Below, in pieces: positions 1,329-23,767 of a stretch of DNA of 64,000 nucleotides (its first letter is position 1; each line of letters begins with the position of its first letter). A program made the position numbers and the translations under genes. The notes beneath the pieces were generated by a model that was not told the origin of the DNA, searched no databases, and saw only the letters and a list, made by a program, of their open reading frames with translations. Location: positions 2,666,001-2,730,000 of the forward strand of contig NZ_JAVDYJ010000001.1 in NCBI RefSeq assembly GCF_031458395.1. The letters are read 5' to 3'. Source of the DNA: Enteractinococcus fodinae (lineage in GTDB: Bacteria; Actinomycetota; Actinomycetes; Actinomycetales; Micrococcaceae).

Positions 1329-2474
1329 ATGGAAGCTGAAGAATTCACGCACGTTCTTGATACCGTTCGGTCTTTTGTTCGCAACGAAGTTGTGCCGGCC
1401 GAAGATGAAATCGAGAAGTCAGACCAGATCCCAGCGCACATCAAAGAAGCTGCAGCAGATATGGGTCTCTTCGGCTTCGCCATCCCGGAAGAATACGGTG
1501 GCCTCGGGGTCACGATGACCGAAGAAGCTCAACTGGTGATGGAACTGGGTTGGACGACACCGTCCTTCCGCTCGATGTTCGGAACCAATAACGGTATTGC
1601 CGGGCAGGTACTCGTGAATGCTGGAACCGAGGCGCAGAAGGAACGCTTCCTACCCGGTCTGGCTGCCGGAGAGCTCGTCGCGTCGTTCGCGCTGACCGAG
1701 TCCGAAGCCGGCTCGGATCCAAGCGGTCTGCGTACCAAAGCTGTGCGCGATGGCGATTGCTACATCTTGAACGGTCAGAAGCGCTTCATCACTAATGCTG
1801 ACCAATCAGACCTGCTCATGGTCTTTGCTCGCACCGGTGACACCGGCAGCCCAGCACAGGATATTTCTGTGTTCGTGGTCGATACGAAGTCGGAAGGCGT
1901 GACCGTCTCCGCTCGCGACGAGAAAATGGGACAGCGCGGTGCGAGCACCTCAGAAATTTACTTCGACGACGTTCGCGTGCCTGCTGACCGTCTCGTTGGC
2001 GAGGTAGAAGGCGAAGGCTACGTGACGGCTATGCGGTCACTGACCAAGGGCCGTCTCCACATCGCAGCGCTGTGTGTGGGCCTTTCTCGCCGACTCCTAC
2101 AAGAAAGCCTCGAGCACGCCACCACGACCACGCAAGGTGGTACCGTCCTGTCAGATTTCCAGTTCGTCCAGGGCATGCTGGCTGAGATGGAAGCCGAATC
2201 CTACGCCGGTGCAGCCATGGTCATGAAGGCCGCCAAGGAATGGGACGAGGGCACGGATCGCCGGATGGCACCATCAAGCGCCAAACTGTTCTGTACAGAA
2301 ATGGTCGGTCGCGCCGCAGATACCGCCGTGCAGATCCACGGCGGAACGGGATACATGCGCTCCGTACCGGTTGAGCGTTTCTACCGGGATGCACGCTTGT
2401 TCCGTCTCTACGAAGGCACCAGCGAAATTCAAAAGATTATCATTGCCAAGCAGCTGGTCAAGTCCATGAAGTAA
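1329..2474 (+). CDS. Acyl-CoA dehydrogenase (first of three)
   Basis: This 381-residue flavoenzyme oxidises an acyl-CoA to the 2-enoyl-CoA and passes electrons to ETF. The ATG at 1329 is chosen because GAGGAG lies just upstream; an in-frame TTG at 1317 is less likely. The family order is visible: helical N-terminal domain with the EEYGGLG motif, middle FAD-binding beta domain (FALTESEAGSD), and C-terminal helical domain with IHGGTGYM. The catalytic base is Glu362 in YEGTSEIQ. It opens the plus-strand cluster and is followed after 130 bases by a CoA-transferase. Chain length or branching of the substrate cannot be read from sequence. In this context methylsuccinyl-CoA or another short branched acyl-CoA is an inferred candidate. 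Confidence 0.95.
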   Translation: MEAEEFTHVLDTVRSFVRNEVVPAEDEIEKSDQIPAHIKEAAADMGLFGFAIPEEYGGLGVTMTEEAQLVMELGWTTPSFRSMFGTNNGIAGQVLVNAGTEAQKERFLPGLAAGELVASFALTESEAGSDPSGLRTKAVRDGDCYILNGQKRFITNADQSDLLMVFARTGDTGSPAQDISVFVVDTKSEGVTVSARDEKMGQRGASTSEIYFDDVRVPADRLVGEVEGEGYVTAMRSLTKGRLHIAALCVGLSRRLLQESLEHATTTTQGGTVLSDFQFVQGMLAEMEAESYAGAAMVMKAAKEWDEGTDRRMAPSSAKLFCTEMVGRAADTAVQIHGGTGYMRSVPVERFYRDARLFRLYEGTSEIQKIIIAKQLVKSMK

Positions 2475-2604
2475 CGCCCCGCTGAGCGCGCTCCTGCGCA
2501 CGCTGCAGGAGTGCCGATCGCGGCTCCACTCGATGTCACATCGAACAGTCGGGGCCGACGATACCCAATAATTAGTGTCTAACTGAAGGAAGTGAATTGC
2601 GGAC

Positions 2605-3831
2605 ATGACGCAAACTGGCGGCTTACTCAAAGGCCTGCGCATCATTGAGCTCTCAAGCTTCGTCGCGACCCCACTGTGCGGCATGGTGCTGGCCCAACTC
2701 GGCGCCGAGGTCATCCGTGTCGAACACACCAGCGGTGGCCCTGATCGCGGTCGGTGGCCATTGGCCAAAGACGGCACGAGCCTGTACTGGACCGGCCTCA
2801 ACCGTGGCAAGTCAGCCATTGCGGTTGACCTGAAAAGCGACGAAGGTCAAGACCTGATCGCAGATCTGGTCACCTCCGGTGGTCCCAACGGGGGCATCTT
2901 GATCAGCAACACGGATCGGTATGCCAAACTTGTAGATGCCGAATTGCGTCAGCGTCGCCCCGATCTGGTGCACGTGCAGTTGATGGGTAAAAACGACGGC
3001 GGCACCGCGGTGGATTACACCGTGCAGGCCGGCACCGGGTTCCCGCTGCTAACGGGCGACGCAGGAGAAGCCGCCCCGGTCAACAACCCGGTCCCAGCGT
3101 GGGACCTGACTGCCGGACTGTATCTGGCAACGGGCTTATTGGCAGCCGTTCATCGTCGTACCGCCACCCAGGAAGGCAGCTTCGTCCAGGTTGCACTCGA
3201 AGACGTAGCACTGGCCACCGCCGGTCAGCTCGGGTACCTCGCGGACGCCCAGCTTCAAGCTGGTCCTGCTCGTGAGGCGGACGGCAACTACGTCTACGGT
3301 TCCTTCGGTCGAGACTTCGAAAGTGCCGACAATGAGCGCATCATGATCGTGGCCCTGACACCGCGTCAGTGGAAGGACCTGGTCGCGATGACGGGGTTGG
3401 AAGACGCACTGGCTTCCCTAGAACCTGTGCTCGGCGCGGACTTTAGTCAAGAAGGCGATCGCTATCGTCATCGACAAGTCCTGTCGGCGCTGATTGGCAA
3501 CTGGTTCGCCCAGCGCAACGCGGCAGAGATCCGTGAAGAACTGGCGAAAACCCGGATTCTGTGGTCGCCGTACCGCACCTTCGAGGACCTGACATCGAAC
3601 GATGCGCAGTACCTCAAAGACCATCCGATGTTCGACGAGGTCTCCGAAGACGGCGTTGGTTCTTACTATGCGCCACGCTCTGCGCTGGTCGTCGACGGTT
3701 CCGCCACGACTCCACAACCTGCCCCAGAAATTGGCGCAGATACCGACCGAATCCTCACTGACTATGTGGGTCTGGACGAAGCCCGTCTTTCCCAGCTCGC
3801 TAGCGAAGGCGTCGTCACCCAAGCCCGCTGA
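2605..3831 (+). CDS. CaiB/BaiF CoA-transferase, resembling mesaconyl-CoA C1:C4 CoA-transferase
   Basis: The 408-residue protein is a class III CoA-transferase. Its start region (ELSSFVATPLCGMVLAQLGAEVIRVE) is typical of the fold. Asp167 in VPAWDLTAG sits where the catalytic aspartate of the family is expected. Several segments (YWTGLNRGKSAIAVDL at 61-76, VDYTVQAGTGFPLLTG, NYVYGSFGRDFES, WSPYRTFEDL) match what I remember of the Chloroflexus 2-methylfumaryl-CoA isomerase (Mct), an intramolecular CoA-transferase that moves CoA from C1 to C4 of mesaconate. This specific assignment is inference from recalled sequence. A hydratase and a CitE-like lyase that would act on its product lie within 10 kb. 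The alternative is a transferase of another dicarboxylic acid. Confidence 0.85.
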   Translation: MTQTGGLLKGLRIIELSSFVATPLCGMVLAQLGAEVIRVEHTSGGPDRGRWPLAKDGTSLYWTGLNRGKSAIAVDLKSDEGQDLIADLVTSGGPNGGILISNTDRYAKLVDAELRQRRPDLVHVQLMGKNDGGTAVDYTVQAGTGFPLLTGDAGEAAPVNNPVPAWDLTAGLYLATGLLAAVHRRTATQEGSFVQVALEDVALATAGQLGYLADAQLQAGPAREADGNYVYGSFGRDFESADNERIMIVALTPRQWKDLVAMTGLEDALASLEPVLGADFSQEGDRYRHRQVLSALIGNWFAQRNAAEIREELAKTRILWSPYRTFEDLTSNDAQYLKDHPMFDEVSEDGVGSYYAPRSALVVDGSATTPQPAPEIGADTDRILTDYVGLDEARLSQLASEGVVTQAR

Positions 3832-3889
3832 TACCCCCGTTGGGTAATCACCCAGACACCATCTCTCGTTTCCTCTGAAAGGACCTCAT

Positions 3890-4630
3890 ATGACGAAACT
3901 CCTCGAAGGCAAGACCGCCGTTATCACCGGTGGCGCCCAAGGCATTGGCCGCGCCACCGCCGAAATGCTCCACGAACACGGCGCGCGCCTGGTCATCGCC
4001 GACCTCAATGGTGAACAGGCACAGCAAACCGCTGAAGAAATCGCCGGCTCCGAGGGCATCGGTGTGGCCTGTGACGTCACCCAAGCAGACCAGGTCGATG
4101 CCGCACTTGATGCAGCCATCGAGAAGTTCGGTTCGCTGGATGTCATGATCAATAACGCTGGTATCACCCGCGACGCCACGATGCGCACCATGACCGAAGA
4201 AGCATTCGACCAGGTCATTGCCGTGCACCTCAAGGGCGCCTGGAACGGTACCCGCCTGGCTTCATTGCGCATGCGCGAACAAAAATCCGGTGCCATCATC
4301 AACATTTCGTCGATTTCCGGCAAAGTCGGGATGGTTGGCCAGACCAACTACTCCTCCGCCAAAGCTGGCATCGTTGGCCTCACCAAGGCTGCGGCAAAAG
4401 AAATGGGCCACCACGGTGTCCGGGTCAATGCCGTTCAGCCCGGCCTGATTCGCACCGCGATGACCGAAGCGATGCCGAAGCGTATTTTCGACGAAAAACT
4501 CGCCGAGATCCCAATGCAGCGCGCTGCTGAACCATCAGAGGTCGCCTCTGTTGTCCTCTTCTATGCTTCCGATCTGTCGTCTTACATGACCGGTACCGTC
4601 GCTGAAGTCAGCGGCGGACGGTTCATGTAG
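3890..4630 (+). CDS. SDR-family 3-hydroxyacyl-CoA dehydrogenase (FabG-like)
   Basis: This 246-residue classical short-chain dehydrogenase has the Rossmann glycine motif TGGAQGIG at 13-20, the NNAG motif at 88-91, and the catalytic Ser143, Tyr154 and Lys158 (YSSAK). The C-terminal SGGRFM is FabG-like. In this setting it most likely oxidises an (R)-3-hydroxyacyl-CoA to the 3-oxoacyl-CoA, pairing with the MaoC-type hydratase (which makes R products) and the thiolase downstream. It lies 58 bases after the CoA-transferase and 78 bases before the thiolase, consistent with one transcript. Cofactor preference is uncertain, although Asp38 at the end of beta-2 (VIADL) favours NAD over NADP. Confidence 0.9.
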
Positions 4631-4708
4631 GTTCTCGACGGTCTCGACTCAATATCCCCTTCGGGTTGGCCACCGCGGTCTAGCTCGAACCACGAAAGGC
4701 TTATCTCA

Positions 4709-5920
4709 ATGCGTGAAGCTGTAATTTGTGAACCGGTCCGTACACCAATTGGTCGTTACGGAGGCCAGTTCAAGGACCTCACCGCTGTAGACCTCGGTGT
4801 CGCGGCCCTCAACGGTCTCCTCGAGCGCACCGGTTTGAATCCTGAACTCATCGAAGACGTGATCCTCGGGCAGTGCAACGGTGGCAGCGAGGCTCCAGCG
4901 CTGGGACGTGTCATCGCCCTGGATGCTGGCTTGCCGATCGATGTGCCAGGTCAGCACCTGGACCGTCGTTGCGGTTCCGGCCTGCAGGCTGTCCTGAATG
5001 CGGCCATGGCCGTCCAGACTGGTGCCCAGGATCTGATCGTCGCCGGTGGCGCTGAAAGCATGAGCAACGCGACCTTCTACTCGACCGATATGCGGTGGGG
5101 TGGCGCACGCACCGGTGTCCAGATGCACGATTCACTGGCCCGGGCACGCAGTACCGCCGGCGGAAAGAACTACCCGGTCCCGGGCGGCATGCTCGAAACA
5201 GCCGAGAACCTGCGCCGCGAATACTCGATCAGCCGCGAAGAACAGGATCAGCTGGCTGTGCAGTCTCACCAGCGCGCCGTGGCCGCTCAAGAATCCGGTG
5301 TAATGGCCGAAGAAATCGTCCCGGTCACGGTGAAGACTCGTAAAGAAGAGCGCATCATTGACACCGACGAGCACCCTCGCCCGGACACCTCCATGGAAAC
5401 CTTGGGCAAGCTCAAACCAATTCTGCTCTCCCAGGATGAAGAGGCCACCGTTACCGCTGGCAACGCCAGTGGTCAAAACGACGCCGCAGCGATGGTTATC
5501 GTCACGACTCCAGAAAACGCTGAAAAGCTTGGCCTGCGGCCACTGGTCCGCTTGGTCAGCTGGGGTGTTGCTGGTGTTCCACCGCGGACCATGGGCATCG
5601 GCCCGGTCCCTGCCACCGCTGCAGCGCTGCAGAAGGCCGGTCTGGAACTGTCAGACATGGACGTCATTGAGCTCAACGAGGCGTTCGCTGCCCAAGCTTT
5701 GGCTGTGATGCGCGAATGGAACTTCACCGACGAAGACCACGAACGCACCAACGTTCACGGTTCGGGTATTTCGCTTGGTCACCCTGTTGGGGCAACCGGC
5801 GGCCGCATGTTAGGCACGCTAGCTCGTGAACTCAACCGCCGTGAAGCACAGTACGGTCTGGAGACCATGTGCATCGGCGGCGGCCAGGGTCTGGCAGCGA
5901 TCTTCGAGCGGGTGGCATAA
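4709..5920 (+). CDS. Acetyl-CoA acyltransferase (thiolase)
   Basis: The 403-residue protein is a degradative-type thiolase that cleaves 3-oxoacyl-CoA with CoA to release acetyl-CoA. It has the nucleophile Cys88 (DRRCGSG), the NEAFAAQ motif, His358 in SLGHPVGATGG and the acid-base Cys388 in MCIGGGQG. Length and order fit the family. It is followed by the MaoC gene only 2 bases after its stop, so the two are very likely translationally coupled. It completes a beta-oxidation set in this cluster. Confidence 0.95.
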   Translation: MREAVICEPVRTPIGRYGGQFKDLTAVDLGVAALNGLLERTGLNPELIEDVILGQCNGGSEAPALGRVIALDAGLPIDVPGQHLDRRCGSGLQAVLNAAMAVQTGAQDLIVAGGAESMSNATFYSTDMRWGGARTGVQMHDSLARARSTAGGKNYPVPGGMLETAENLRREYSISREEQDQLAVQSHQRAVAAQESGVMAEEIVPVTVKTRKEERIIDTDEHPRPDTSMETLGKLKPILLSQDEEATVTAGNASGQNDAAAMVIVTTPENAEKLGLRPLVRLVSWGVAGVPPRTMGIGPVPATAAALQKAGLELSDMDVIELNEAFAAQALAVMREWNFTDEDHERTNVHGSGISLGHPVGATGGRMLGTLARELNRREAQYGLETMCIGGGQGLAAIFERVA

Positions 5921-5922
5921 GC

Positions 5923-6381
5923 ATGGGCAAACACACCTTCACTTCAGTAGAAGAAATCAAGGAGTCGGTAAATAAGCCACTGGGCACGACCGACTGGGTC
6001 GAGATTTCCCAAGAAGACGTCAATGCGTTCGCCGACGTCACGGGCGATCACCAATGGATCCACGTCGATGTTGAGCGCGCAAAGCAATCAAATTTCGGCG
6101 GGACGATCGTCCACGGTTTCATGACCCTGGCCTTCCTGCCGAAGTTTGCCGGTGAACTCTACCAGTTCGATATGGGTTCAGCTCGCCTCAACTACGGCTT
6201 GGAGAAAGTACGCTTTCTTGCCCAGCTGCCAGTTGGCGAACGGATCCGCGGCTCCGCGGAGTTCGTCTCCGTCGCCGAGCAAGCCTCCGGCACGCGAGTG
6301 CACACGAAGTGGACTCTGGAGCGGGAAAACGGCGATCGTCCAGTCTGCGTCGCTGAATCAGTGACGATGATCGTCGCGTAG
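5923..6381 (+). CDS. MaoC-family (R)-specific enoyl-CoA hydratase
   Basis: This 152-residue single-hotdog protein has the hydratase-2 motif ADVTGDHQWIHVD, with the catalytic Asp42 and His47. It hydrates 2-enoyl-CoA to (R)-3-hydroxyacyl-CoA. The ATG at 5923 is used because it directly follows the thiolase stop (gap of 2 bases); the frame extends upstream only inside the thiolase. The gene ends 18 bases before the second acyl-CoA dehydrogenase, whose ribosome-binding site AGGAG lies in that gap. With the dehydrogenases, the SDR and the thiolase it gives a full beta-oxidation cycle through R intermediates. Confidence 0.92.
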   Translation: MGKHTFTSVEEIKESVNKPLGTTDWVEISQEDVNAFADVTGDHQWIHVDVERAKQSNFGGTIVHGFMTLAFLPKFAGELYQFDMGSARLNYGLEKVRFLAQLPVGERIRGSAEFVSVAEQASGTRVHTKWTLERENGDRPVCVAESVTMIVA

Positions 6382-6399
6382 GAGAAAAGGAAGCAAAAC

Positions 6400-7674
6400 A
6401 TGAATCTTGACTCAGGAATTACCCAAAGCGAGATCTCAGTACCGGTCCAGCGACCGGTCCTGCCGCCGCCTTGGCACACTGCTGAACGTCAAGCGCTGCA
6501 GGACGAAGCCTACACATTCGCCCGCGAGGAGGTCCTGCCCGTCGCTAATGAGCTGGACCCCCAAAAGGGTGAGATGCCGGCCAGCTTGATAGCTCGCCTC
6601 GGCGAACTGGGCTATTTCGGAATTACGATTCCGAAAGAAGACGGCGGTATGGGCCTGGGCGTCTTCGAATACTGCATGGTGGCCGAAGAACTGGCCGTGT
6701 CGTGGATGAGCGTGGCAAGTATTATTGCGCGCGCCCAAGGTGTCGGCACGAACGTGGCTGACAAAACACGTCGCAAGGAACTACTCCGTCGCAGCGCAGC
6801 TGGTGAATGGATCGGTGCGATCGGTTTCTCTGAACCACTGGCAGGTTCGGACCTGGCAAACGTCCAGACCACTGCAACACGTGATGGCGATTCCTGGGTG
6901 ATTCATGGTCGCAAACGCTGGATCGGGAACTCGCTGGCCGCCGACTTCATCCAGTTGTTGGCACGCGAGCGCCAGCCTGAACCAGGCGAATCACGCTCCG
7001 CGGGCATGATCACACTGTTGGTCGAAAAGAAGCGCAACGAATTCCCTGAAGGCCTGACCGGGACACCAATCGACAAGATTGGCTATCACGGTTTCACCAC
7101 CTGGGATCTGACGTTCGACGGTCTGCGAGTACCGGTTGAGAACGTCCTCGTTGGTCCGGAAGAGGCCGAACAAGCCCAGAGCGCTGCCGAGGCAGCAGAG
7201 GGCAAACGTCGCGCTTTCCAGGAGACCCAGAAATGGCTGAATATCGCTCGCGTTCAGACCGCGGCTCGTGCCGTGGGGCTGGCCAGAGCGGCCGTGGAAG
7301 ACTCCACCGAGTACCTCCAGCGTCGTCAGCAGTTTGGTCGACCCATCGGTGACTTCCAGGCGCTGCGTTTCGAGCTCGCCGAGATGGCCGCCAAAGTGGA
7401 TGTAGCTCGCGCGCACTACCGTCAGGTAGCGCACCTGCTCGACGCCGGGGTGCCCTGCGAACGCGAAGCGGCAATGGCCAAGCTCGAGGCAACCGAGATG
7501 GCCGTGTACGTTACCAACCGTGCGATGCAACTGCATGGCGGCAACGGGTACACGACCGAACTGCAAGTAGAGCGTCACTGGCGTGATGCACGCTTGACCA
7601 CCATCTTCGAAGGCACCAGCGAGATCCAGAAGAAGATCATCAGCGACCGCCTGTTGCCACGCGCTAAGCACTAA
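6400..7674 (+). CDS. Acyl-CoA dehydrogenase (second of three)
   Basis: The 424-residue protein is the last gene of the plus-strand cluster. It has the ACAD fold with IPKEDGGMGLG, the FAD loop FSEPLAGSDLA, RQQFGRPIGDFQ, LHGGNGYTTE and the catalytic Glu404 in FEGTSEIQ. It carries an extra N-terminal segment of about 25 residues and an acidic, Ala/Glu-rich insertion at about 255-270 compared with simple short-chain enzymes. In overall layout it recalls enzymes acting on branched or dicarboxylic acyl-CoAs. A methylsuccinyl-CoA-type role is inference only. A strong terminator follows 40 bases after the stop. Confidence 0.93.
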   Translation: MNLDSGITQSEISVPVQRPVLPPPWHTAERQALQDEAYTFAREEVLPVANELDPQKGEMPASLIARLGELGYFGITIPKEDGGMGLGVFEYCMVAEELAVSWMSVASIIARAQGVGTNVADKTRRKELLRRSAAGEWIGAIGFSEPLAGSDLANVQTTATRDGDSWVIHGRKRWIGNSLAADFIQLLARERQPEPGESRSAGMITLLVEKKRNEFPEGLTGTPIDKIGYHGFTTWDLTFDGLRVPVENVLVGPEEAEQAQSAAEAAEGKRRAFQETQKWLNIARVQTAARAVGLARAAVEDSTEYLQRRQQFGRPIGDFQALRFELAEMAAKVDVARAHYRQVAHLLDAGVPCEREAAMAKLEATEMAVYVTNRAMQLHGGNGYTTELQVERHWRDARLTTIFEGTSEIQKKIISDRLLPRAKH

Positions 7675-7714
7675 CTGACCTCCCCACCGTCGGGGACAAT
7701 TACTCGCGTCCTAA

Positions 7715-7757
7715 GTGGGGCCTGATCCGCAGTCTCGGATCAGGCCCCACTGGTTTT
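7715..7757 (+). terminator. Rho-independent terminator after the acyl-CoA cluster
   Basis: GTGGGGCCTGATCCG (7715-7729) pairs perfectly with CGGATCAGGCCCCAC (7736-7750) around a 6-base loop and is followed by TGGTTTT. It cleanly ends the cluster that begins at 1329 and shows that the CitE-like gene has its own promoter. Confidence 0.9.
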
Positions 7758-7831
7758 AAAGGGCAGGTAGCAAGCGTCGACAGTGCTGTTATCTGCTTCA
7801 CGAATCTAGACATAGGAAGGTGTATTTTGTG

Positions 7832-8680
7832 ATGAAATATACTGGCTCAATGACTGTTTCAACCCTCACCTCGCGCACCGCGTTGTTCACCCCAGCGAAC
7901 CGTATCGATCGCGTGGAAAAAGCCCTTGCCGGTCCGGCAGATACTGTGATCGTCGATCTCGAAGACGCGGTAGCTGAGACAGCGAAAGATTCCGCCCGGC
8001 AACAGCTCAAAGACTTCCTTGCCTCGCTTGATCCTGAGGTGCAGCACCGGTTGGCGATACGGATTAACGCTCCTGACACTGCCAGTGGACAGTTAGATCT
8101 CGATATGCTCGGCGACGCAGCGAACCTGCCCGCTGCCATTATGGTGCCCAAGGCTGAAGCGACCGGGACGTTTGACCGGCTACCCGAGTTCTTGGACTCG
8201 GTGACGGTGTTGGCCCTGGTTGAAACGCCCACCGCGGTTCGGGATGTGCACGCCATCGCCGCTCTTCCACGGGTAGATCGACTGGCTATCGGAGCGGTGG
8301 ATCTCTCCTCAGCGCTGGGCTCCCAGATTGCTTCTGTGCCCATTGAAGCAGCTCGGGCTGCTGTGGTGTTGGCTTCGGCCGCAGCGGGTCTCCCAGGACC
8401 GCTCGACACCCCAACCACTGAGATCTCCAACGACGATGCCATCCAAGCTGCGGCTCAGGCTTCGGTACGAGACGGTTTCGGCGGCATGCTGTGCATTCAT
8501 CCCAAGCAGCTTGACCATGTGACCGCCGCGTTCACCCCCAGCCAGGAGATGGTTGCCTGGGCCGAGCGCGTCATTGCCGCCGGTGACGGTGCAGGCACCG
8601 TAGACGGACAGATGATTGACCGTCCAGTGATGCTGCGTGCCGAACGCATCCTGCAGGACGCTGGCCGAAGCGCGTCCTAA
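7832..8680 (+). CDS. CitE/HpcH-HpaI-family CoA-ester lyase (citramalyl- or malyl-CoA lyase-like)
   Basis: The TIM-barrel lyase of about 282 residues has LFTPANR, the VDLEDAV motif (Glu44, Asp45), the CoA-binding RINAPDT, a metal-binding Glu in LVETPTAV, an aspartate in IGAVDLSSALG, and IHPKQL near the end. These residues define the CitE-like subfamily that splits 3-hydroxyacyl-CoAs such as citramalyl-CoA (to pyruvate and acetyl-CoA) or malyl-CoA. The start is uncertain: AGGAAGG at about 7814-7820 allows the GTG at 7829 or the ATG at 7832, and an ATG at 7850 is also possible. Its neighbours, a mesaconyl-CoA-type transferase and a two-hotdog hydratase, favour citramalyl-CoA as substrate (inference). 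It is convergent with the ligase that follows. Confidence 0.85.
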   Translation: MKYTGSMTVSTLTSRTALFTPANRIDRVEKALAGPADTVIVDLEDAVAETAKDSARQQLKDFLASLDPEVQHRLAIRINAPDTASGQLDLDMLGDAANLPAAIMVPKAEATGTFDRLPEFLDSVTVLALVETPTAVRDVHAIAALPRVDRLAIGAVDLSSALGSQIASVPIEAARAAVVLASAAAGLPGPLDTPTTEISNDDAIQAAAQASVRDGFGGMLCIHPKQLDHVTAAFTPSQEMVAWAERVIAAGDGAGTVDGQMIDRPVMLRAERILQDAGRSAS

Positions 8681-15868: not shown

Positions 15869-16746
15869 ATGCAGGTTTCCATCTATGCGTTTCGTACACT
15901 GCTATGGGGCGCGCAGCAGAACAGCGACGACATAAGTGCAGTGCCAGAAGAAGTACTACCGGCACTGGAACGCGAACCCACACACGAAGAAATGGTGTCG
16001 CACGGTTGGATAGATGAGGCCGCTCTGGACAAGATGCTCGGTAGTGGGCCAAACTTTACTCTCTCCCCCAACGGAAAACAGCGAGCTCGTCGATGGTGGG
16101 ATGAATACCCAATGCATAGCGCAGCCTATGAAATATTGCAGGCGATCCCGGCGACGAATGGGGATCTCTCCGGCGCAGAAGATGCTTTCGACGCCACCTA
16201 TCGAGATCCAGTCACGAATGAACCCCCCCTTCTGCTGATCTAATTGATCAAGCCGGAGGGATGCTGTATAAGAACGGGTTTGTTTCAGGGTTCCCCTCGA
16301 TGGGTTACGAGTCGCCTCATCGGCTAACCCTAACTACACGAGGTCGGGAAGTACGTCGCGAACATTATGTACCAACGCTCCTCCCACAAATGCCCGACAG
16401 TACCCCCGAGGCCGCTACAGCCGCACCCTCAGCGACCTATAATTTCACGACTAATATTACCGGGGGCACCATTGGAGCTGCACAATTCGGCCATCAGAAC
16501 CACGCCACTGTTGAAAACGTACAGCCTGAAGTCCAGCAGCACTTCCAAACTTTGCGCGACTTTGCCTCCGAGGCGCCGTCGGAAGATCGTCAAGAGCTGC
16601 TTGAACAGATTCACCAACTCGAAGAAGCAGCCCAACGAGGACCATCAGCTTTCGAAGAGCTCCGGAATAAGTTCTTCTCTAGCTTTGTAACCAAGCTCGG
16701 GGATCGAGCCGTAAATATCCTTATGGAGATACCACAGCTTCTCTAA
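15869..16746 (+). pseudogene. Hypothetical protein with winged-helix-like segments, interrupted by a frameshift at a C7 tract
   Basis: Two adjacent frames join into one sensible protein if the ribosome moves -1 (or one C is added) at the run of seven C at 16223-16229. The first frame (15869-16243) stops soon after the run. In the second frame the sequence continues as SADLIDQAGGMLYKNGFVSG with no interruption to 16746. The merged product of about 290 residues has two similar winged-helix-like parts, each ending in LSPNGKQRA or LTTRGREVR, and then the segment NITGGTIGAAQFGHQN, reminiscent of short beta-rich GGxIGxxQxG segments. A C-terminal helical region rich in Glu and Gln closes it. It may be a real frameshift, a phase-variable tract, recoding, or a sequencing error. 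Function unknown. Confidence 0.6.
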
Positions 16747-16786
16747 GTTACAAAGGCCTAGTCTCTCCCCTAGCCCTATCCAGGTA

Positions 16787-17119
16787 TTAGCTCTTCTCGG
16801 CGCGCGGCGTAGACCTGGTAGAACGTCTGCCGTGACACTTCGAACGGCTAGTGGAGTCGACTGATTTAGGCAGCAACTCCGGTGTCGGCGTTTTATCCAG
16901 TCGAGAGAACCTCCAAGGAGCCTCGATTGTACGGACCACCATTTGAACCTGTGAAAACGGCGCAATTAATTGGGGATTCACCGCCACGAGCCACTTAATG
17001 GCTGTCCAGACACGCCCTAGACTTTGATCGTAATCTGCATCACTCTGAGTGAGGATGGAGCCTAGCGTACAGTGTGGCGGGTCCTCGCCGTACGTGGGGT
17101 GGTCGTATTCGGGCGGCTA
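16787..17119 (-). pseudogene. Truncated gene remnant without a start codon
   Basis: A 110-codon open frame (stop at 16787, upstream stop codon just beyond 17119) has protein-like composition: GSILTQSDADYDQSLGRVW, AIKWLVAVNPQLIAPFSQVQ and VVRTIEAPWRFSRLDKTP. No ATG or GTG precedes the conserved-looking part. The left end is cut off just beside the hairpin at 17130-17180. It reads like the 3' part of a decayed gene. I cannot name the family, and a chance open frame is possible. Confidence 0.3.
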
Positions 17120-17129
17120 GTGCTGGTTG

Positions 17130-17180
17130 AAATAGAACGCGGCACACGACGATTTGTTCGTCGCATGCCGCGCTCTATTT
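17130..17180 (-). terminator. Hairpin after the ETF-cytochrome b operon
   Basis: AAATAGAACGCGGCA (17130-17144) pairs with TGCCGCGCTCTATTT (17166-17180), with one mismatch, and an inner CGACGA/TCGTCG stem closes the loop. It begins 13 bases after the cytochrome stop codon. The T content on the exit side is modest, so termination efficiency is uncertain. Confidence 0.65.
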
Positions 17181-17193
17181 TGCGAGTTTCTGA

Positions 17194-18888
17194 TTATCTT
17201 GTTGAGACGGTTCCGGTTTTTTCGGCGATGGGTGAGATGAAGATCGGTTTGATCAACCAGGCCACCCCGACAGTCACAGCCACCGACAGCGCGAAGACGC
17301 CGATGCCCCACCAGTCGCTAGCATCCCGAGCGGTGAACATAATGTTGAGGTTGTGCAGCACTCCAGTGGTAAACACTAGGAACAGGTGGACGATGATGAA
17401 CAGGATGAAGTACACCATGGTGAAGAAGTGAATCTTCCGAGCCACTGGCAGCGTGAAGGCCTTATTCAGGCCCTCAGCTTTCTGCGGCCACCACGTCGAC
17501 AGTCGCAACCCGGTGAGCACTGCGATTGGAGCGGCAATGAATACGGTGATGAAATACGTCATGATCTGTAAGGCGTTGTAATACACCCACGAGTTCTCGG
17601 CCGGCCAGTCCAACGATAAATACTGGATGCCTGCTGAGACGATATTGGGGAAGATGTCCCAGTTCGTGGGAACAATGCGCACCCAGTGCCCGGTGGCAAA
17701 CACCATCACATAAAAGATCAGCCCGTTGGCCACCCACAACACGTTGAAGCTTTGGTGGATCCACTGTTGGATCGAGACCTTCTGTGGGGAGTTCTTCTTA
17801 TTGGGTGAGAAGAATCCACCATCCTTCGGGGTCCAGTACGCCTCAGGCCGTTCTTGGTTCCGAATCAGCAACCCGGACCGGATCACCATGACCATAATGA
17901 AGAAGTTGAAGAAGTGCTGCCAGCCCACCCAAGCCGGGATCCCGGGCTCAATGCCCTCCGGGTGCGTTGGCGTGCCATCATAGGTGGCAATAAAGTTCGC
18001 CACCGGCTCCAGGCCACGTGCCCACTGGGCGATCAGGACCAGCCCGGCGGCGACCACGGCCACACTCAACAAGGTCAAGATGACTTTGGTGACCTTGGAC
18101 ATCTCTTTTTTGGGTGGCTTCTGTGCGGACGCACCAGCAGGTGCGGCCTCGGTCTTGGCTGCGGGTTTGGCCGGTTCCGGCGTCACTACCTCTGGGGTCT
18201 TTACCGCCGGCTCAGCAGCAGGTTGGGCAGCCGGTTGAGCAGCAGGTGCCGACTCCTGGCTGGCAGCTGGGGCGCCCATCCGACGACGCGGAGCCGCCGG
18301 GGCCGAATCGGCCACCGGAGCCAGGGTCGGCTCTTCGGCCGCCGGAGCAGGGTCAGGCTGGGGCGCAATCGCCGCAGCGACATCCGGGTGGCCCACCTTC
18401 AGCGGTTCCCACCCCTCCATGCGTCGCCGCGGTAAGTCCTCGGTCACCGGTGCTGGAGCGACCGGTACCGCCTGCGCGACAGCCGGGGTGGCCTGCTCAG
18501 TAACAGCTGATGTTTCGGCAGCAGCCGGGGCTTGGGCAGCGGGTGCTGCGGTTGGGGCCACAACCGGCGCACCATCACGAGCCACCGACAACGGCTGCCA
18601 TCCAGCCATCCGACGCCGCGGAACATTCGGATCCTGGATCGGACCCGACGCAGCAGACTGGACAGGTTCGGCAGCTGTGGTGGCAGTTCCCGGAACCGAC
18701 TCCGCAATTGGAGTCGAAGCACCGTCAGCAGCCACCGATTGAGGGGCCTCGGTAAAATCCGTCTGCGTCTCGGATTCAGGTGTTGTTTGTGGTTCTAGAA
18801 CAGAGATTGCGGATGAGACCGTGGGTTGTGGTGCGTCGGTGTTTTCGACGCTCAACGGGGCCCATCCGACCATACGGCGTTTAGACAT
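17194..18888 (-). CDS. Membrane cytochrome b-like protein with disordered N-terminal RRRM-x-GW repeats
   Basis: The 564-residue protein has two parts. Residues 1-260 are Ala/Pro/Glu-rich and probably disordered. They carry a repeated motif RRM-x-GW-x-PL-(S/K)-V at 4-14, 92-102 and 155-165, plus a degenerate RRRMG at 201. Residues 265-564 are a di-heme cytochrome b-like membrane domain (about five or six helices) like those of formate dehydrogenase gamma or thiosulfate reductase. Candidate heme ligands are His325, His378, His487 and His501. The gene starts 5 bases after etfA, so the three genes form one operon. An inferred role is to take electrons from ETF to (mena)quinone, or to anchor ETF at the membrane. 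I know no characterised protein with this exact architecture. Confidence 0.85.
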   Translation of the reverse strand: MSKRRMVGWAPLSVENTDAPQPTVSSAISVLEPQTTPESETQTDFTEAPQSVAADGASTPIAESVPGTATTAAEPVQSAASGPIQDPNVPRRRMAGWQPLSVARDGAPVVAPTAAPAAQAPAAAETSAVTEQATPAVAQAVPVAPAPVTEDLPRRRMEGWEPLKVGHPDVAAAIAPQPDPAPAAEEPTLAPVADSAPAAPRRRMGAPAASQESAPAAQPAAQPAAEPAVKTPEVVTPEPAKPAAKTEAAPAGASAQKPPKKEMSKVTKVILTLLSVAVVAAGLVLIAQWARGLEPVANFIATYDGTPTHPEGIEPGIPAWVGWQHFFNFFIMVMVIRSGLLIRNQERPEAYWTPKDGGFFSPNKKNSPQKVSIQQWIHQSFNVLWVANGLIFYVMVFATGHWVRIVPTNWDIFPNIVSAGIQYLSLDWPAENSWVYYNALQIMTYFITVFIAAPIAVLTGLRLSTWWPQKAEGLNKAFTLPVARKIHFFTMVYFILFIIVHLFLVFTTGVLHNLNIMFTARDASDWWGIGVFALSVAVTVGVAWLIKPIFISPIAEKTGTVSTR

Positions 18889-18893: not shown

Positions 18894-19841
18894 TCAGTTC
18901 CGGCGGGCTTGGATTTCATCAACGAGTTGAGGCATAACCTCAAAGAGGTCCCCGACTACACCGAAGTCCGCCACATCAAAGATTGGGGCGTCTTCGTCTT
19001 TGTTGATGGCGACAATGGTTTTGGCGGTCTGCATACCGGCCAGGTGCTGGATCGCACCGGAAATCCCTACGGCGATGTAGAGATCTGGCGACACGGAGAC
19101 ACCGGTCTGGCCGATCTGCAGGTTAGGGGGAACATACCCTGAATCGACAGCGGCACGGGAGGCGCCGACCGCGGCGTTGAATTGATCCGCAAGGTCCTCG
19201 ACGAGTTTGAAGTTCTCTTCAGAACCGACACCGCGACCACCGGAGATAACGACCGAGGCCGATGTCAGAGCTGGGCGATCCGAGGCTTCTTCCAGGCCTT
19301 CGGCTGAGACAATCGTGGCACCCGGACCGGCGTCAACCTGCGTCTCAGAGTTCACCACAGCAGGCTGGCCGACAGCCGCCGCGCGGGTATCGATCGTGCC
19401 GGGACGCAGGGTGGCGATCATCAGCCCACCCTCGACGGTGGACTCGGTGTTGTAGTCCCCACCGAAGATCGAGTGGGTGACCACGGCTTCTTGGCCATCG
19501 GCATCCCAGTACAACCCGGTGGCGTCCGAGGCCACCGCACCCTTCGTGGCGATGGCAATCCGGCCGGCGATCGCTGAGTTCACCGGGTTACGACCCAGTA
19601 AGAGCAATGAAGTACCGTAGTGCTGCACGGCAGCCATCCCGGCTGCAACCTCGGCGGTGCCCAGCTGGTCTTCGGGTCCAGGGTGGACAAAGATTTCGGT
19701 CGCTCCAGCGGCTCCTAAGGAAGCGATGGTATCAGCATCCGGTGCGGTAGTCACGACCGCGACCGGCTCCCCAATAATGGAAGCAGCACCTAGCACTTCA
19801 GCAGGGTCGGTATGAGAAATAAGCGCAAGTACTTTCGTCAC
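18894..19841 (-). CDS. etfA: Electron transfer flavoprotein alpha subunit
   Basis: This 315-residue protein has the Rossmann-type N-terminal domain and the conserved C-terminal FAD domain, with [46 protein letters not shown], and [20 protein letters not shown]. It forms the ETF heterodimer with EtfB and accepts electrons from acyl-CoA dehydrogenases. It follows etfB by 13 bases and precedes the cytochrome b-like gene by 5 bases. Confidence 0.97.
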
Positions 19842-19854: not shown

Positions 19855-20625
19855 TTAGATCAAGTGCCGTTCGGCAAGGAAGTCGACAAGTTCAGTAGTA
19901 GCCGTCTCGCCGGAGACCTTCTGCCCGGCCTCTTTCGGCGGGCGTTCAGCGGCGGAGACCATCACGTTGCGCACGTAGGCGGCGTCCGGTCCGGCAGCTA
20001 AGCCGAGATCGGCCAGCGAGGTGACAGCGATTTCTTTCTTCTTGGCCTCACGAATGGCTTTGAAGTTTGGCAGTTTTGGTTCACCGGCTTTTTCAGTCAG
20101 TGACACGACCGCAGGTGTGGCAGCCGAAAGGGTGAGCTTTTCGGTTTCGGTGTTGGTCTCACCGGTGACGGTGCCGTCGGTGATGTTAATGGAATCGGCG
20201 CCGATGATGTGTGGGCGGCCTAAGATTTGAGCAACCATTGCTGGGACCATTGCCCCACCGCCATCGGTCGACTCGGCGCCGGTCAGGACCAAGTCAGCAT
20301 CCTTGACGGCTTCAGCCAACACGCGAGCTGTCTGGACCATATCCGATCCGGCCAGCGCATCGTCAACAACATGGACGGCACGGTCCGCTGCCAGTGCTAG
20401 TACCTTCCGGATGGCCTTATCTGCGTCAGCGGGCCCCATGGTCACGGCGACCACTTCGGTGGCGATGCCTTCTTTCTTGAGATCCGCGGCGACTGCACAG
20501 ACCCGTTCGTCGATCTCGTCGACCACGTTTTCGGACGCTTCTCGAGCTAATAGCCCAGTATCCAACGCCACTTGGCGTTTCTCATAGGTGTCGGGCACCT
20601 GTTTTACGAGCACTACGACTTTCAT
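19855..20625 (-). CDS. etfB: Electron transfer flavoprotein beta subunit
   Basis: The 256-residue protein starts [13 protein letters not shown] and contains [26 protein letters not shown], the AMP-binding region [19 protein letters not shown] and the signature [23 protein letters not shown]. An in-frame TTG 30 bases upstream is less likely than the ATG at 20625, which follows GGGGTGG. It is the first gene of the etfB-etfA-cytochrome operon. The three acyl-CoA dehydrogenases in the island are its obvious electron donors. Confidence 0.97.
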
Positions 20626-20655
20626 GTCCACCCCAATAGTGATGAGCTTTTGCAA

Positions 20656-20672
20656 AATAATATATTATATAC
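20656..20672 (-). promoter_or_regulatory. Candidate promoter of the ETF operon
   Basis: Read on the minus strand, the region contains TATAAT (20669 to 20664) within TATATAATATATTATTT, about 40 bases upstream of etfB. The AT-rich block is nearly palindromic and resembles a block in the dehydrogenase-GntR intergenic region. No consensus -35 box is visible, which could mean activator or repressor dependence. Confidence 0.45.
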
Positions 20673-20731
20673 AGGAGAGTATAGCGAGCTCGAGACCTCT
20701 TGGCGAATACGTGTCACACCGGGATATACGA

Positions 20732-20781
20732 AGCCCACCCCAACGCACCGTGGTTTTGCAACCTGGCGATTGGGGTGGGCT
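20732..20781 (-). terminator. Terminator hairpin after the second acyl-CoA synthetase
   Basis: AGCCCACCCCAA and TTGGGGTGGGCT pair perfectly over 12 bp around a 26-base loop, starting 6 bases after the stop of the synthetase gene. It separates that gene from the ETF operon, which therefore needs its own promoter. Confidence 0.65.
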
Positions 20782-20787
20782 GGAGTT

Positions 20788-22305
20788 CTAGACTGCTTCG
20801 CGTAGGTCCGTTTTGCGGATCTTGCCTGTGCCACTTCGTGGGAACGCCTCACGCAAGACAATGTCTTTCGGATGCTTATAACGAGCTAATTTCCCGTCGC
20901 AGAACTCGCGAATCTCTTCGAGAGTCGGAGCATCCGCTGGGTCTTGAGGAATGATGACCGCTACCGGTATTTCGCCCCACTTTTCGTCGGCACGTCCGAC
21001 GACGGCGACATCAGCGACCTTGGGGTGCCAGGCAATGACGTTTTCTAGCTCGGCGCAATAAATGTTCTCCCCACCGGAGATGATCATGTCTTTGACTCGG
21101 TCCACGACATAAATGAAACCGTCCTCGTCTTGGCGTACGAGGTCGCCGGAGTGGAACCACCCTCCAGCAAAGGCTTCAGCGGTAGCTTCCGGATTGTTCC
21201 AGAAACGATCCATCACGCCGGGACCGCGGTACACGATCTCCCCGACTTCTCCTTGCGGGACGTCATTCATCTCTGGATCAACCACTCGGATCGAGTAGTT
21301 CACATCAGGAAGTCCAACAGAGCCGAGTTTGCGTAGAGAGTCCTCATGACTCAACGAGACACCACTTGCGGTGGTTTCGGTTTGACCAAAGGCCGCCTGA
21401 GAGTCCGCGTTGGGGAAGGTTTCCCGCAACAGTGTCAACAACGCTTCGGTGGCTGGGGCCGCACCCCAAGAGTAGAACTCCAGCTTGATGTCCCGCGGTT
21501 TGCGTTGCTGTTCTTCTGCAATCAGTTGCCATTGGGCCGGCACCATGAACGTGCGCGTGACGCCCTGTTCTTCCATGACATCCAGCAAGTATCCGGCGTC
21601 GAAATTAGTCGAAGGCGTGATAACGGTTTTGGCAGCACTGGAGATACTGCCAAGCATCACGTTGAATGCAGCGATGTGAAACATTGGCGAAGCGATGAGC
21701 ACCGCATCGTGTAGGGGCTTCACCTTCCACGTACTGCTGATGCGCATAATCGTGGCGAGGAAGTTCGAATAGGTCAGGACCGCGCCCTTCGGACGACCTG
21801 TGGTGCCCGAGGTGTACATGATGGCCTGGTCATCAGTCTGTGCACAGATCACCGGATCTGGAATGTTCTGCAGTTCACCGGGCGCTGCGACCTGGTCTAG
21901 ATCGAGCAGTTGTACCGACGTTTCCGCAGCGGCCTCACGGGTGATGTCGACTCGCTCGGCATCTGCGACCACTACCTTGGGTTCGCAATTGCCCAAGATG
22001 TAGCCGATCTCCCCCGCCGCGAGGCGAAAGTTGACCGGCACGATAATCGCACCCAAGTAGTTCACGGCGTAGGCCACCACCGGGTAGGCGGCACTGTTGC
22101 CTGCTACCAGTGCGACTCGGTCGCCTTGTTTGACACCGGCTTCGGCTAAGCGGGCGGCAGCGGTTTGGATGCGTGCTAGAAACTCTCGGAAGGTGAGTTT
22201 GAAATCTCCATCGACCACTGCTGTTTCTTCTGGCAGCTCCCAGGCATGTCGAAACACGCGTGCAAGCGGCAAATGCGTCCGAGACAATTCGAGACCAATA
22301 TCCAC
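20788..22305 (-). CDS. AMP-forming acyl-CoA synthetase (second of two)
   Basis: This 505-residue ANL-family ligase has MYTSGTTGRPKGAV, the GQTETTAS motif, WFHSGDLVRQDEDGFIYVVDRVKDMIISGGENIY at the hinge and the catalytic lysine region PRSGTGKIRKTDL. The GTG start at 22305 is supported by AAGGAG five bases upstream. The layout resembles medium- and long-chain fatty acid ligases of actinobacteria. It lies 190 bases downstream of the second DctP-like binding protein and may activate its ligand; its substrate is unknown. Confidence 0.94.
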   Translation of the reverse strand: MDIGLELSRTHLPLARVFRHAWELPEETAVVDGDFKLTFREFLARIQTAAARLAEAGVKQGDRVALVAGNSAAYPVVAYAVNYLGAIIVPVNFRLAAGEIGYILGNCEPKVVVADAERVDITREAAAETSVQLLDLDQVAAPGELQNIPDPVICAQTDDQAIMYTSGTTGRPKGAVLTYSNFLATIMRISSTWKVKPLHDAVLIASPMFHIAAFNVMLGSISSAAKTVITPSTNFDAGYLLDVMEEQGVTRTFMVPAQWQLIAEEQQRKPRDIKLEFYSWGAAPATEALLTLLRETFPNADSQAAFGQTETTASGVSLSHEDSLRKLGSVGLPDVNYSIRVVDPEMNDVPQGEVGEIVYRGPGVMDRFWNNPEATAEAFAGGWFHSGDLVRQDEDGFIYVVDRVKDMIISGGENIYCAELENVIAWHPKVADVAVVGRADEKWGEIPVAVIIPQDPADAPTLEEIREFCDGKLARYKHPKDIVLREAFPRSGTGKIRKTDLREAV

Positions 22306-22411
22306 ACGAACTCCTTATAAGTCTTATTTCTGTAGGTGGCGCGACGCCAGCACACCAGGGCATCGGGTACGCCGTTGCTCAGTAGCGGCGTGTAAAAACT
22401 TGGGTGGAAGA

Positions 22412-22454
22412 CCACCGGCAGGTAGCGGATCGGGCAAGGCTATCCTGCCGGTGG
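22412..22454 (-). terminator. Terminator after the second binding-protein gene
   Basis: CCACCGGCAGG and CCTGCCGGTGG form an 11-bp perfect stem. In the minus direction the hairpin is followed after a short distance by GTTTTTA. It lies 41 bases beyond the stop codon at 22496. Confidence 0.7.
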
Positions 22455-22495
22455 CTTTCATTTCACTAGGGCTCTAGCGCTCCGGCGGGCGCGGC

Positions 22496-23767
22496 TTACT
22501 CCGCTGGGCGGTGCTCTAGGTAGATCTCTTCCATCATGCGTTCTGCAAGTGGCGAGAAGTCGATGGATTCACCATCGAGGTTTTCTGCGAAATCGGACCA
22601 GTTGCCGTTATCTTCATAGCCGAGTTCTTCTACGATTTGCGTCCATTTTTCTTGCGCTGCGTCGTAGTCTGCGATGAGTTTGGTACCGTCTAGCGCATCG
22701 GAGCTCTCGACGTCTTCGCGAAGGGCCTCGACGGTAGCGTCGAGTGCTTCTTCAGTTTCATCATCGACGGTGTGGAACCCACCGGAGAAATCGTCCATCG
22801 CGGCGAGGTAGTCTCGGGTGCTGACCTCAAATTGTCCGTTGATGTAGACCTCGAGCTGATCATAGATGAGCTGTTGGGCAGCAAGCGGCAGGTCATCCCA
22901 TTGTCCGCCAGCCAGCAGGGCGGCCGTGCTCCGACCCAGCGAGCCATCTTGCGGAGCAACGATGTGGGGAGCTACTTCAGAAACCCCAGTAGCCATACCG
23001 ACTTTGAGCCCGTTGACCGCGCAGTTAATCACTCCACGTTGCAACCCCTCATACAGTTCAGTGTATGGAAGCGAAGTTCCGCTGGCCCCAATCGACTCAA
23101 TCATTTGCAGAAGGTCGGGTGCCCCAGCACTAATCACAGCACCGTTCAATTCATCGGCGCTATCAGCCTGATCGGTACACATTGCCACGTGGGAGAATTC
23201 GGCTTCAACGGGAACAAGCGGAGTCACCCCCATGGCTTCGTAGTTACTTTGGATTTCTGGAGTGTTCCAGGCGACCTCTGCGGTGGCAGCCACGTTAACA
23301 AAATCGGATACGGCGCTCCCACTTCCGCCGCTGGATTGCAGGTTCACCAACTCGGCGATGGCTGGATATTCTGACGGGGCGTACTGCGGAATCTCATAGC
23401 CCAGGTCGAGACGACCATCCTGCAGCGCGGAAGCTACCTCAGATGGTGCAACGATAGGGTATCCAAATAGTACTTCGACCGAGATCTTCCCGTCGGACCA
23501 TTCCTCGATGGCTTCGGCGAAGGCCGTATCACGAGCACCATTGCCACCGGTGGCAGAGCTCGCAGCTTGGAAGGTCAATTCAACCGGCTCCATGTCTGCC
23601 AAGGCTTCAGCGTATTCCTCTTTCGAAGCTCCGGGCTCAACGCTGGCACCGCGGTCTGCGGCTCCTTCAGTGTCACCAACACTGCCGGCGCAGCCTGCAA
23701 GGAGTAAAGCTGAGACGGTTAGCAGTCCTCCAAGGCGTAGTTTTTTGGTTAGAGACGTCGGTTTCAT
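22496..23767 (-). CDS. DctP-like TRAP solute-binding lipoprotein, paralogue of the one at 10480
   Basis: This 423-residue lipoprotein has lipobox LAGC (Cys26). The ATG at 23767 is chosen over an upstream start because AGGAG lies five bases before it. It shares with its paralogue the ELTFQAA opening, DGRLDLGYEIPQYAPSEYPA, MGVTPLVPV and LPYTELYEGLQRGVINCAVNG. It probably binds a carboxylate outside the membrane. Like its paralogue it has no permease gene next to it. The gene precedes an acyl-CoA ligase on the same strand, linking uptake with activation. Confidence 0.85.
   Translation of the reverse strand: MKPTSLTKKLRLGGLLTVSALLLAGCAGSVGDTEGAADRGASVEPGASKEEYAEALADMEPVELTFQAASSATGGNGARDTAFAEAIEEWSDGKISVEVLFGYPIVAPSEVASALQDGRLDLGYEIPQYAPSEYPAIAELVNLQSSGGSGSAVSDFVNVAATAEVAWNTPEIQSNYEAMGVTPLVPVEAEFSHVAMCTDQADSADELNGAVISAGAPDLLQMIESIGASGTSLPYTELYEGLQRGVINCAVNGLKVGMATGVSEVAPHIVAPQDGSLGRSTAALLAGGQWDDLPLAAQQLIYDQLEVYINGQFEVSTRDYLAAMDDFSGGFHTVDDETEEALDATVEALREDVESSDALDGTKLIADYDAAQEKWTQIVEELGYEDNGNWSDFAENLDGESIDFSPLAERMMEEIYLEHRPAE

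Follow-up and report, generated by a model that had tools for sequence, protein, structure and literature searches.

A gene island in Enteractinococcus fodinae and a possible route from methyl-branched dicarboxylates to acetyl-CoA and pyruvate

What could be the function of an actinobacterial gene island in which enzymes resembling those of mesaconyl-CoA and citramalyl-CoA metabolism lie among genes for beta-oxidation? The island occupies positions 1329-23767 of a 64,000-nucleotide stretch of Enteractinococcus fodinae DNA (the window; positions 2,666,001-2,730,000 of the 2.93 Mb single-contig genome, assembly GCF_031458395.1). A sequence-only reading had singled out a family III CoA transferase resembling mesaconyl-CoA C1:C4 transferase (Mct) at 2605, a hydratase of the mesaconyl-C4-CoA/itaconyl-CoA type (Ich) at 11877 and a CitE-like lyase at 7832, and had proposed that they convert mesaconyl-C1-CoA to acetyl-CoA and pyruvate. 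Open reading frame (ORF) and domain scans confirmed that all three genes are intact and belong to the families named. The full beta-oxidation set and the two ligases that had been claimed are also present.

We propose that the island carries out beta-oxidation of a methyl-branched dicarboxylate through methylsuccinyl-C1-CoA, mesaconyl-CoA and citramalyl-CoA to acetyl-CoA and pyruvate, a tentative reading to which we give a little under an even chance. Its direct basis is gene content, homology, clades, active-site residues, linkage in relatives, comparison with the DNA of congeners and a shared promoter motif. From these we infer all substrates, that CoA is transferred within one molecule and in the direction proposed, and which of the acyl-CoA dehydrogenases (ACADs) takes which step.

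A possible route and its competitors

In the route that we propose, the acid would be taken up by a tripartite ATP-independent periplasmic (TRAP)-type transporter and activated by an AMP-forming ligase. A 3-methyl-branched C6 acid, for example as 3-methyladipyl-C6-CoA, would then pass through one round of beta-oxidation. The enzymes, all encoded on the forward strand, would be ACAD1 (1329-2474; the ORF runs from a TTG at 1317, and an ATG with a sequence like a ribosome-binding site stands at 1329) or ACAD2 (6400-7674), a MaoC-type enoyl-CoA hydratase (5923-6381), a FabG-like short-chain dehydrogenase/reductase (SDR; 3890-4630), which is a candidate 3-hydroxyacyl-CoA dehydrogenase, and a thiolase (4709-5920), which scores above the model cut-off for the PRK06205 subfamily. 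The products of this round would be acetyl-CoA and methylsuccinyl-C1-CoA. ACAD2 or ACAD3 (12920-14086, reverse strand) would oxidize the latter to mesaconyl-C1-CoA, with electrons passing to an electron transfer flavoprotein (ETF) and a cytochrome b protein. The Mct-like transferase (2605-3831, forward strand, 408 residues) would move CoA from C1 to C4 of mesaconyl-CoA. Finally, the Ich-like hydratase (11877-12779, reverse strand, GTG start), a double-hotdog (MaoC-N) protein and candidate mesaconyl-C4-CoA hydratase, would form (S)-citramalyl-CoA, and the CitE-like (HpcH/HpaI) protein (7832-8680, forward strand), a candidate (S)-citramalyl-CoA lyase, would cleave it to acetyl-CoA and pyruvate.

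We favour this route because it gives a role to every enzyme class encoded in 1329-14086, where plain beta-oxidation and a C5-dicarboxylate scheme fail. The scheme of the sequence-only reading, confined to C5 compounds, leaves the SDR, the thiolase and the MaoC hydratase without a role. The main argument that joins the two halves of the island concerns the position of CoA. Thiolysis of 4-methyl-3-ketoadipyl-CoA in the mml pathway for 4-methylmuconolactone (MmlFG, MmlC) gives methylsuccinyl-CoA and acetyl-CoA, as we propose here, the isomer not being stated (PMC6449761). Judging from the structure, the product would be the C1 ester, and methylsuccinyl-C1-CoA is described as a dead end for Cupriavidus necator (PMC12290011). 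Since the steps catalysed by Ich and citramalyl-CoA lyase (Ccl) use C4 esters, a C1-to-C4 transferase would be needed precisely in the case that a thiolase yields the C1 ester. The mml pathway differs from the island in its muconolactone isomerase family, which is not among the island proteins.

It could be argued instead that the C5 acid itself (methylsuccinate, mesaconate or itaconate) is imported, ligated and funnelled through mesaconyl-CoA and citramalyl-CoA, and that the beta-oxidation genes serve another purpose. Pseudomonas and Cupriavidus are known from published work to use methylsuccinate and itaconate by way of mesaconyl-C4-CoA (PMC12290011; PMC9875883); there the cluster has the order ich-mcd-msi-ict-ccl, with a TRAP transporter in Pseudomonas aeruginosa. 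The island resembles this cluster in its Ich-like hydratase, its CitE protein like citramalyl-CoA lyase, its ACADs and its TRAP proteins (PMC12290011), which are of the transporter class found in P. aeruginosa, and its ligases could replace Ict. When we compared the island with the P. aeruginosa proteins (those of L118, a plasmid-borne copy whose genes stand in the published order), its ACADs were only 30-33% identical to PA0879, no isomerase of the MmgE/PrpD family was among its proteins, and 2605 was only 26% identical to Ict, so that we rejected 2605 as an Ict. The island also has a thiolase, an SDR, a MaoC hydratase, ligases and an Mct-like transferase that the P. aeruginosa cluster lacks. 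Moreover, if a ligase formed the C4 ester, no Mct would be required, and in Geodermatophilus and Catenulispora a thiolase and an SDR stand in a row with a CitE relative and the hydratase. We regard direct use of a C5 acid as unlikely.

Some of these enzymes have been brought together elsewhere, and the novelty claimed by the sequence-only reading is weaker than stated because relatives of methylsuccinyl-CoA dehydrogenase (Mcd), Mct, Ich and CitE lie together on an Azospirillum plasmid (L030) and because a use of methylsuccinate through mesaconyl-C4-CoA has already been described (PMC12290011; PMC9875883). On that plasmid a close Mcd relative, an Mct relative, Ich, CitE, ETF and TRAP genes lie within about 20 kb; a second one (L034) has an Mct relative, an ACAD and TRAP genes in the 21 kb examined. 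Both plasmids carry a close Mcd relative and also a gene like the E1 subunit of 2-oxoglutarate dehydrogenase. They differ from the island in that their transferase has an Ile at the 'cork' position described below and that no thiolase relative was found in the stretches examined. By gene content, the Azospirillum plasmids seem to hold a clean methylsuccinyl-C1-CoA route. Among the literature matches listed, we did not find in print the transferase clade without a cork, its link to thiolase units or the combined island. Searches on mesaconyl-C4-CoA with thiolase and on thiolase structures gave no matches, and nothing useful on actinobacteria was among the matches listed; none of the 3-methyladipate papers listed contained 'mesacon-'.

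The enzymes examined one by one

The transferase 2605 is nearest to Mct. TIGR04253, the Mct model, was its top NCBIfam model (381.8 bits, next 105.8), which is below the model cut-off of 725 bits, a threshold applied to 2605 and not to the transferases of Azospirillum and others that have Leu or Ile at the cork position. Its top sequence matches in the PDB were the Mct enzymes of Chloroflexus and Roseiflexus (364 and 351 bits, next 95), and these were also nearest in fold to an AlphaFold model of 2605 (TM 0.88-0.90, 42-44% identity, pLDDT 84). In Mct, Asp165 is the nucleophile and Arg47 and Tyr136 hold the carboxylate (PMC9813914; PMC9196870). All three are kept in 2605, as D167, R50 and Y138. 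Mct also has a Leu or Ile at position 43, a 'cork' that narrows the mouth of the active site and is described as present in all known intramolecular transferases (PMC9813914). In 2605 the corresponding residue is Pro46.

We placed 2605 in an alignment of 112 rows (the window, the two solved Mct and 109 loci, after two duplicate rows were dropped). The catalytic Asp and the Arg were present in all 112 rows and the Tyr in 111, with a Phe in the remaining one. Position 43 was Leu or Ile in 26 rows; these form one clade (SH-aLRT 97 in a 116-row tree that includes four outgroup rows) made up of Chloroflexus, Roseiflexus, Azospirillum, Paraburkholderia, gammaproteobacterial and some actinobacterial rows. 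The clade was recovered with support of 100/98.9 when the cork residue was masked in a chosen set of 50 rows. 2605 was excluded from it in this masked tree, with an approximately unbiased test value (p-AU) of 3.8e-5. Its own clade (10 rows, SH-aLRT 99) includes Streptomyces, Geodermatophilus, Nocardiopsis, Nonomuraea and Catenulispora. We therefore rejected 2605 as Mct proper on its cork residue and its place in the tree. It differs from the Chloroflexus and Roseiflexus enzymes in its beta-oxidation gene setting as well.

The cork bears on a second alternative, in which the clade of 2605 acts on dicarboxylyl-CoAs that are longer or otherwise different, shifting CoA from one carboxyl to the other before beta-oxidation sets in and thereby letting breakdown begin from the unblocked end, or acts as an intermolecular activating transferase, while the hydratase and the CitE protein act on related 3-hydroxy-3-methyl acyl-CoAs. 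The residue at position 43 is Ala (37), Pro (23) or Ser (23) in 83 of the 86 rows that lack Leu or Ile, and Val, His or Gly in one each, which would open the mouth of the site. A family I enzyme, ThnP, performs a shift of this kind on a cyclic diacid (PMC11659651), and ACAD1-SDR-thiolase-transferase units occur without hydratase or lyase. Conversely, all 86 rows retain the equivalents of Arg47 and Tyr136, the residues that hold the tail of mesaconate, and the hydratase of the island is nearest to that of P. aeruginosa (PaIch), a C5 enzyme. We consider this second alternative somewhat unlikely.

The top PDB matches of the hydratase 11877 were two PaIch entries (196 and 194 bits, next 19), and its predicted fold (pLDDT 86) was nearest to PaIch (E 3e-28; next protein 2e-13). 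The motif HRIHYD...VVHGPL was present in all 10 aligned relatives of 11877 and does not discriminate Ich from its kin. In a 25-row tree (29 rows less four duplicates or fragments), in which PaIch is the sole characterised row, 11877 formed a group with PaIch and a further seven proteins of proteobacteria with support of 87/93; this grouping is not decisive, since an alternative placement was not rejected (p-AU 0.21). To represent the characterised hydratase of C. necator, L119 (C. necator strain C39) was tried and dropped, as no relative of Ccl, Msi or PA0879 was nearby.

The lyase 7832 is 40% identical to the citramalyl-CoA lyase of P. aeruginosa (PaCcl). Its best curated model was RipC, yet it scored 177.4 bits against a cut-off of 375. 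The DLED, RIN, PK, ET and GAxD motifs are kept, and they are common to most CitE-like rows and so not specific. In the lyase tree 7832 lay in an open fork of 14 rows that includes PaCcl and Rv2498c. Sequence and model comparisons of 11877 and 7832 support the proposed steps from mesaconyl-C4-CoA to citramalyl-CoA and on to acetyl-CoA and pyruvate. Of the three steps originally drawn from mesaconyl-C1-CoA, the lower ones fit these proteins, and the first would fall to an enzyme that is not Mct itself.

The sequence-only reading had suggested that the ACADs supply mesaconyl-CoA from methylsuccinyl-CoA. We checked 12 residues of Paracoccus Mcd taken from PMC5798300, among them Arg252, which is essential, Arg376, Arg421 and Ala285 of the methyl pocket. 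ACAD2 keeps eight (Ser248, Arg252, Phe287, Tyr375, Thr418, Arg421, Phe534 and Glu535) and thus two of the three key Arg; it has His at Arg376 and Ile at Ala285, an exchange that abolished activity in Rhodobacter sphaeroides Mcd. ACAD1 and ACAD3 each hold one of the key Arg, and ACAD3 lacks Arg252. ACAD3 had been considered as an Mcd, with 6es9 as its second-best solved structure; it was dropped on this residue check, FadE3 (4iv6) being much closer at 74% identity. Ile at 285 is likewise seen, together with all three Arg, in a Paraburkholderia ACAD (L031) whose gene is next to those for Mct, Ich and CitE. The L030 Azospirillum ACAD is 74% identical to Paracoccus Mcd, keeps 11 of the 12 residues and, by its sequence, would serve as a positive control for a C1 route outside the 3-hydroxypropionate cycle. 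For the dehydrogenation of methylsuccinyl-CoA, the island appears to offer a candidate that is plausible, not convincing, and this step is uncertain.

Gene neighbourhoods, a shared motif and the weight of the evidence

We examined the neighbourhoods (10 kb, or to the contig end) of the best 80 of 569 named loci with a 2605 relative, counting ACAD1 relatives at at least 50% identity. The genes recur together more often than by chance: ACAD1 was found at 31 loci, SDR at 29, thiolase at 25, ACAD3 at 13, hydratase at 11, MaoC at 9 and CitE at 8. Near the nine other members of the 2605 clade we found an Ich-like hydratase in five cases, ACAD3 in five, ACAD1 in five and thiolase in four. CitE was above threshold in two of the nine and below it in Geodermatophilus (one locus, L077, spans only 3.9 kb). 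Geodermatophilus DF01-2, the nearest relative by transferase (61%), has transferase, CitE relative, ACAD3, SDR, hydratase and thiolase in this order on one strand within about 6 kb. In Catenulispora rubra, ACAD1, CitE, ACAD3, SDR, hydratase, thiolase and MaoC stand in a row, with the transferase about 2.2 kb further on, and an Aeromicrobium metagenome-assembled genome has transferase, hydratase, CitE, ACAD3 and GntR in one row. Two loci of the Leu/Ile clade (L035 and L036) have a thiolase besides hydratase or CitE. On a Sulfitobacter plasmid (by annotation) and on a Paracoccus plasmid, CitE, thiolase, SDR and ACAD genes accompany an Ich relative, with no Mct relative among them. In a phylum sample, the transferase was present in 4 of 7 other hydratase-bearing genomes versus 21 of 395 overall (Fisher p 2e-4, uncorrected for kinship, from a first-look search). 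Across phyla, thiolase chemistry is tied to both the transferase and the hydratase, and many transferase loci manage without a hydratase or lyase nearby.

A motif, TNATATATNA, occurs four times in the window versus 0.16 expected, and none of 100 shuffled sequences reached four. All four copies lie at island promoters: a palindrome, TCATATATGA, at 10474-10483, which overlaps the start codon of the gene at 10480; a palindrome-like site, TAATATATAA, at 14157-14166 between ACAD3 and a GntR/FCD regulator gene (14343-15032, forward strand); a palindrome, TAATATATTA, at 20658-20667 upstream of the ETF genes; and another, TTATATATAA, at 23909-23918 upstream of the gene at 22496-23791. The genome has six copies (three for a reversed control pattern), and the chance of four of six falling in the island is 5e-8, an optimistic figure because the motif was chosen after these intergenic stretches had been viewed. 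When one mismatch was allowed, the window held 8 copies against 5.07 expected, which no longer exceeds chance. Three of the sites overlap TATAAT, and the candidate operators may lie over a -10 box or may merely be strong promoters. GntR would be the protein that binds them.

These data bear on a third alternative: two or more unrelated catabolic clusters came to lie side by side by chance acquisition and form no single pathway. Such a history would fit genes that run on both strands in several runs, the inverted repeats between them, spotted by eye, and the 29 of 80 transferase loci at which none of the eight markers was found. It fits poorly with the recurrence of the same enzymes together in other families and in other orders, and with a promoter motif common to four gene groups. 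We consider chance assembly very unlikely.

Several findings weigh against the route through methylsuccinyl-C1-CoA. Besides the Pro at the cork position and the exclusion of 2605 from the characterised Mct clade, the full Mcd residue set is present in no ACAD of the window, and three ACADs and two ligases exceed the needs of the scheme. 11877 belongs to a subclade different from that of the hydratases of its nearest operon relatives, and the CitE relative of Geodermatophilus deviates at several motifs and, on these residues, may not be a working lyase. The operon at 1329-8680 holds no copy of TNATATATNA. At 17 of the 80 loci, 15 of them mycobacterial, ACAD1, SDR and thiolase are the only markers within 10 kb of the transferase, hydratase and lyase being absent, and no hydratase relative (E<=1e-20) was found in 10 of 12 transferase-bearing genomes of one family. 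Even in the Leu/Ile clade the hydratase was near 5 of 24 loci and CitE near 4 (six of the 24 span only about 4.2 kb). From the 17 loci and the 10 genomes it follows that the transferase can function in the absence of the mesaconyl module.

A broader proposal, which we hold as doubtful, is that a large undescribed actinobacterial clade of cork-less family III CoA transferases repositions CoA on methyl-branched dicarboxylyl-CoAs within beta-oxidation. In one regulon with a citramalyl-CoA lyase and a hydratase of the Ich type, it would route 3-methyl-branched dicarboxylates (from terpenoids, methyl-alicyclics or methyl-aromatics) through methylsuccinyl-C1-CoA to acetyl-CoA and pyruvate. If this is true, CoA repositioning by Mct-like enzymes would be a general catabolic trick beyond one autotrophic cycle, and these enzymes would test whether the cork is needed for intramolecular transfer. 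It would also supply a source of methylsuccinyl-CoA; the environmental origin of methylsuccinate is described as unclear until recently (PMC12290011).

Related motifs were seen in other actinobacteria. Four mycobacterial loci have the TNATATATNA 10-mer pattern in their ACAD1/SDR promoter region, a Streptomyces contig has it some 100 bp ahead of the point where the transferase match begins, and L033 and L084 hold one copy each, where its relation is unclear. A conserved AT-rich sequence, ATCNTATATSAAATANNATNT, stands once per locus at the promoter region of ACAD1/SDR-thiolase-transferase units in L072, L083, L092, L101 and 11 further mycobacterial loci. In each of the 15 selected mycobacterial loci, TATATSAAATA is present once and once only, within or next to the promoter region of ACAD1/SDR. 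With a matrix built from the mycobacterial sites, the ACAD3/GntR site scored highest in the window at 15.2 bits, against 28.5-34.4 for the training sites and 14.5 for an unrelated place at 33731. This result is only suggestive, and a transfer of the operator from mycobacteria was set aside.

Uptake, electron transfer and acquisition of the island

The sequence-only reading had credited the island with its own uptake system, ETF and regulator. The regulator is the GntR protein, and uptake is represented by two DctP-family TRAP solute-binding proteins, SBP1 (10480-11748, forward strand) and SBP2 (22496-23791, reverse strand). The claim on uptake needs correction: the genome has four DctM permease genes, none of them within 1329-23767. 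Paralogues of SBP1 (10585-11723) that match it at the DNA level lie at 2.77-2.81 Mb of the same genome, an expansion of DctP-type binding proteins. At 1-377 (reverse strand) the window holds the 5' portion of a gene for a TRAP solute-binding protein of the TAXI family, its remainder being outside the window at 17100-18377 of the upstream stretch L007, and a fused DctQM permease gene (L007:14924-17074) lies just beyond. The two AMP-forming acyl-CoA ligases are encoded at 8715-10283 and 20788-22305, both on the reverse strand.

The ETF proved not to be a special one. Genes for ETF alpha (18894-19841), ETF beta (19855-20655; the true start is probably inside the ORF) and a cytochrome b561-domain membrane protein (17194-18888), all on the reverse strand, are second copies of genus genes. 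This unit is present in seven of eight congeners (all but G007), and the other copy in E. fodinae, at 68.5-72.1 kb, is 81-87% identical to that of the island. Thus, the ETF of the island and that of the genus are paralogues, and we rejected a dedicated Azospirillum-like ETF, for which the 66% identity spans just 130 residues. The cytochrome b561-domain protein has a long Pro/Ala-rich N-terminus. A search for an ETF-QO domain (PF05187) found none, and one CCG-domain protein was located elsewhere; the cytochrome b561-domain protein may be the membrane acceptor of ETF electrons.

The island was probably acquired by this species. No relative of 2605 was found at E<=1e-40 in any of 38 searched relatives, eight of them congeners (G007 and G002 are 71% and 88% complete), and only short DNA matches to 1300-15300, no long ones, were found in the eight congeners (the query excluded 20700-23791). 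No tRNA genes were found in the window.

Upstream of the window, at L007:4597-14841 (genome 2,652,597-2,662,841), a second catabolic run adjoins the fused TRAP permease gene and encodes two ACADs, an Amidohydro_2 protein, a 4HBT thioesterase, two SDRs, a succinate-glutarate-like CaiB protein, a ligase and an enoyl-CoA hydratase. No exact copy of TNATATATNA was found in L007. With this run included, the island may extend over about 37 kb. At its right edge is a pair of genes for a UmuC-like polymerase and an S24 (UmuD-like) peptidase (24129-25831). The stretch at 15311-16760, with hypothetical ORFs, matches a contig of just one congener (G005) at 94% DNA identity, unlike the rest of the island, and is perhaps a mobile insert.

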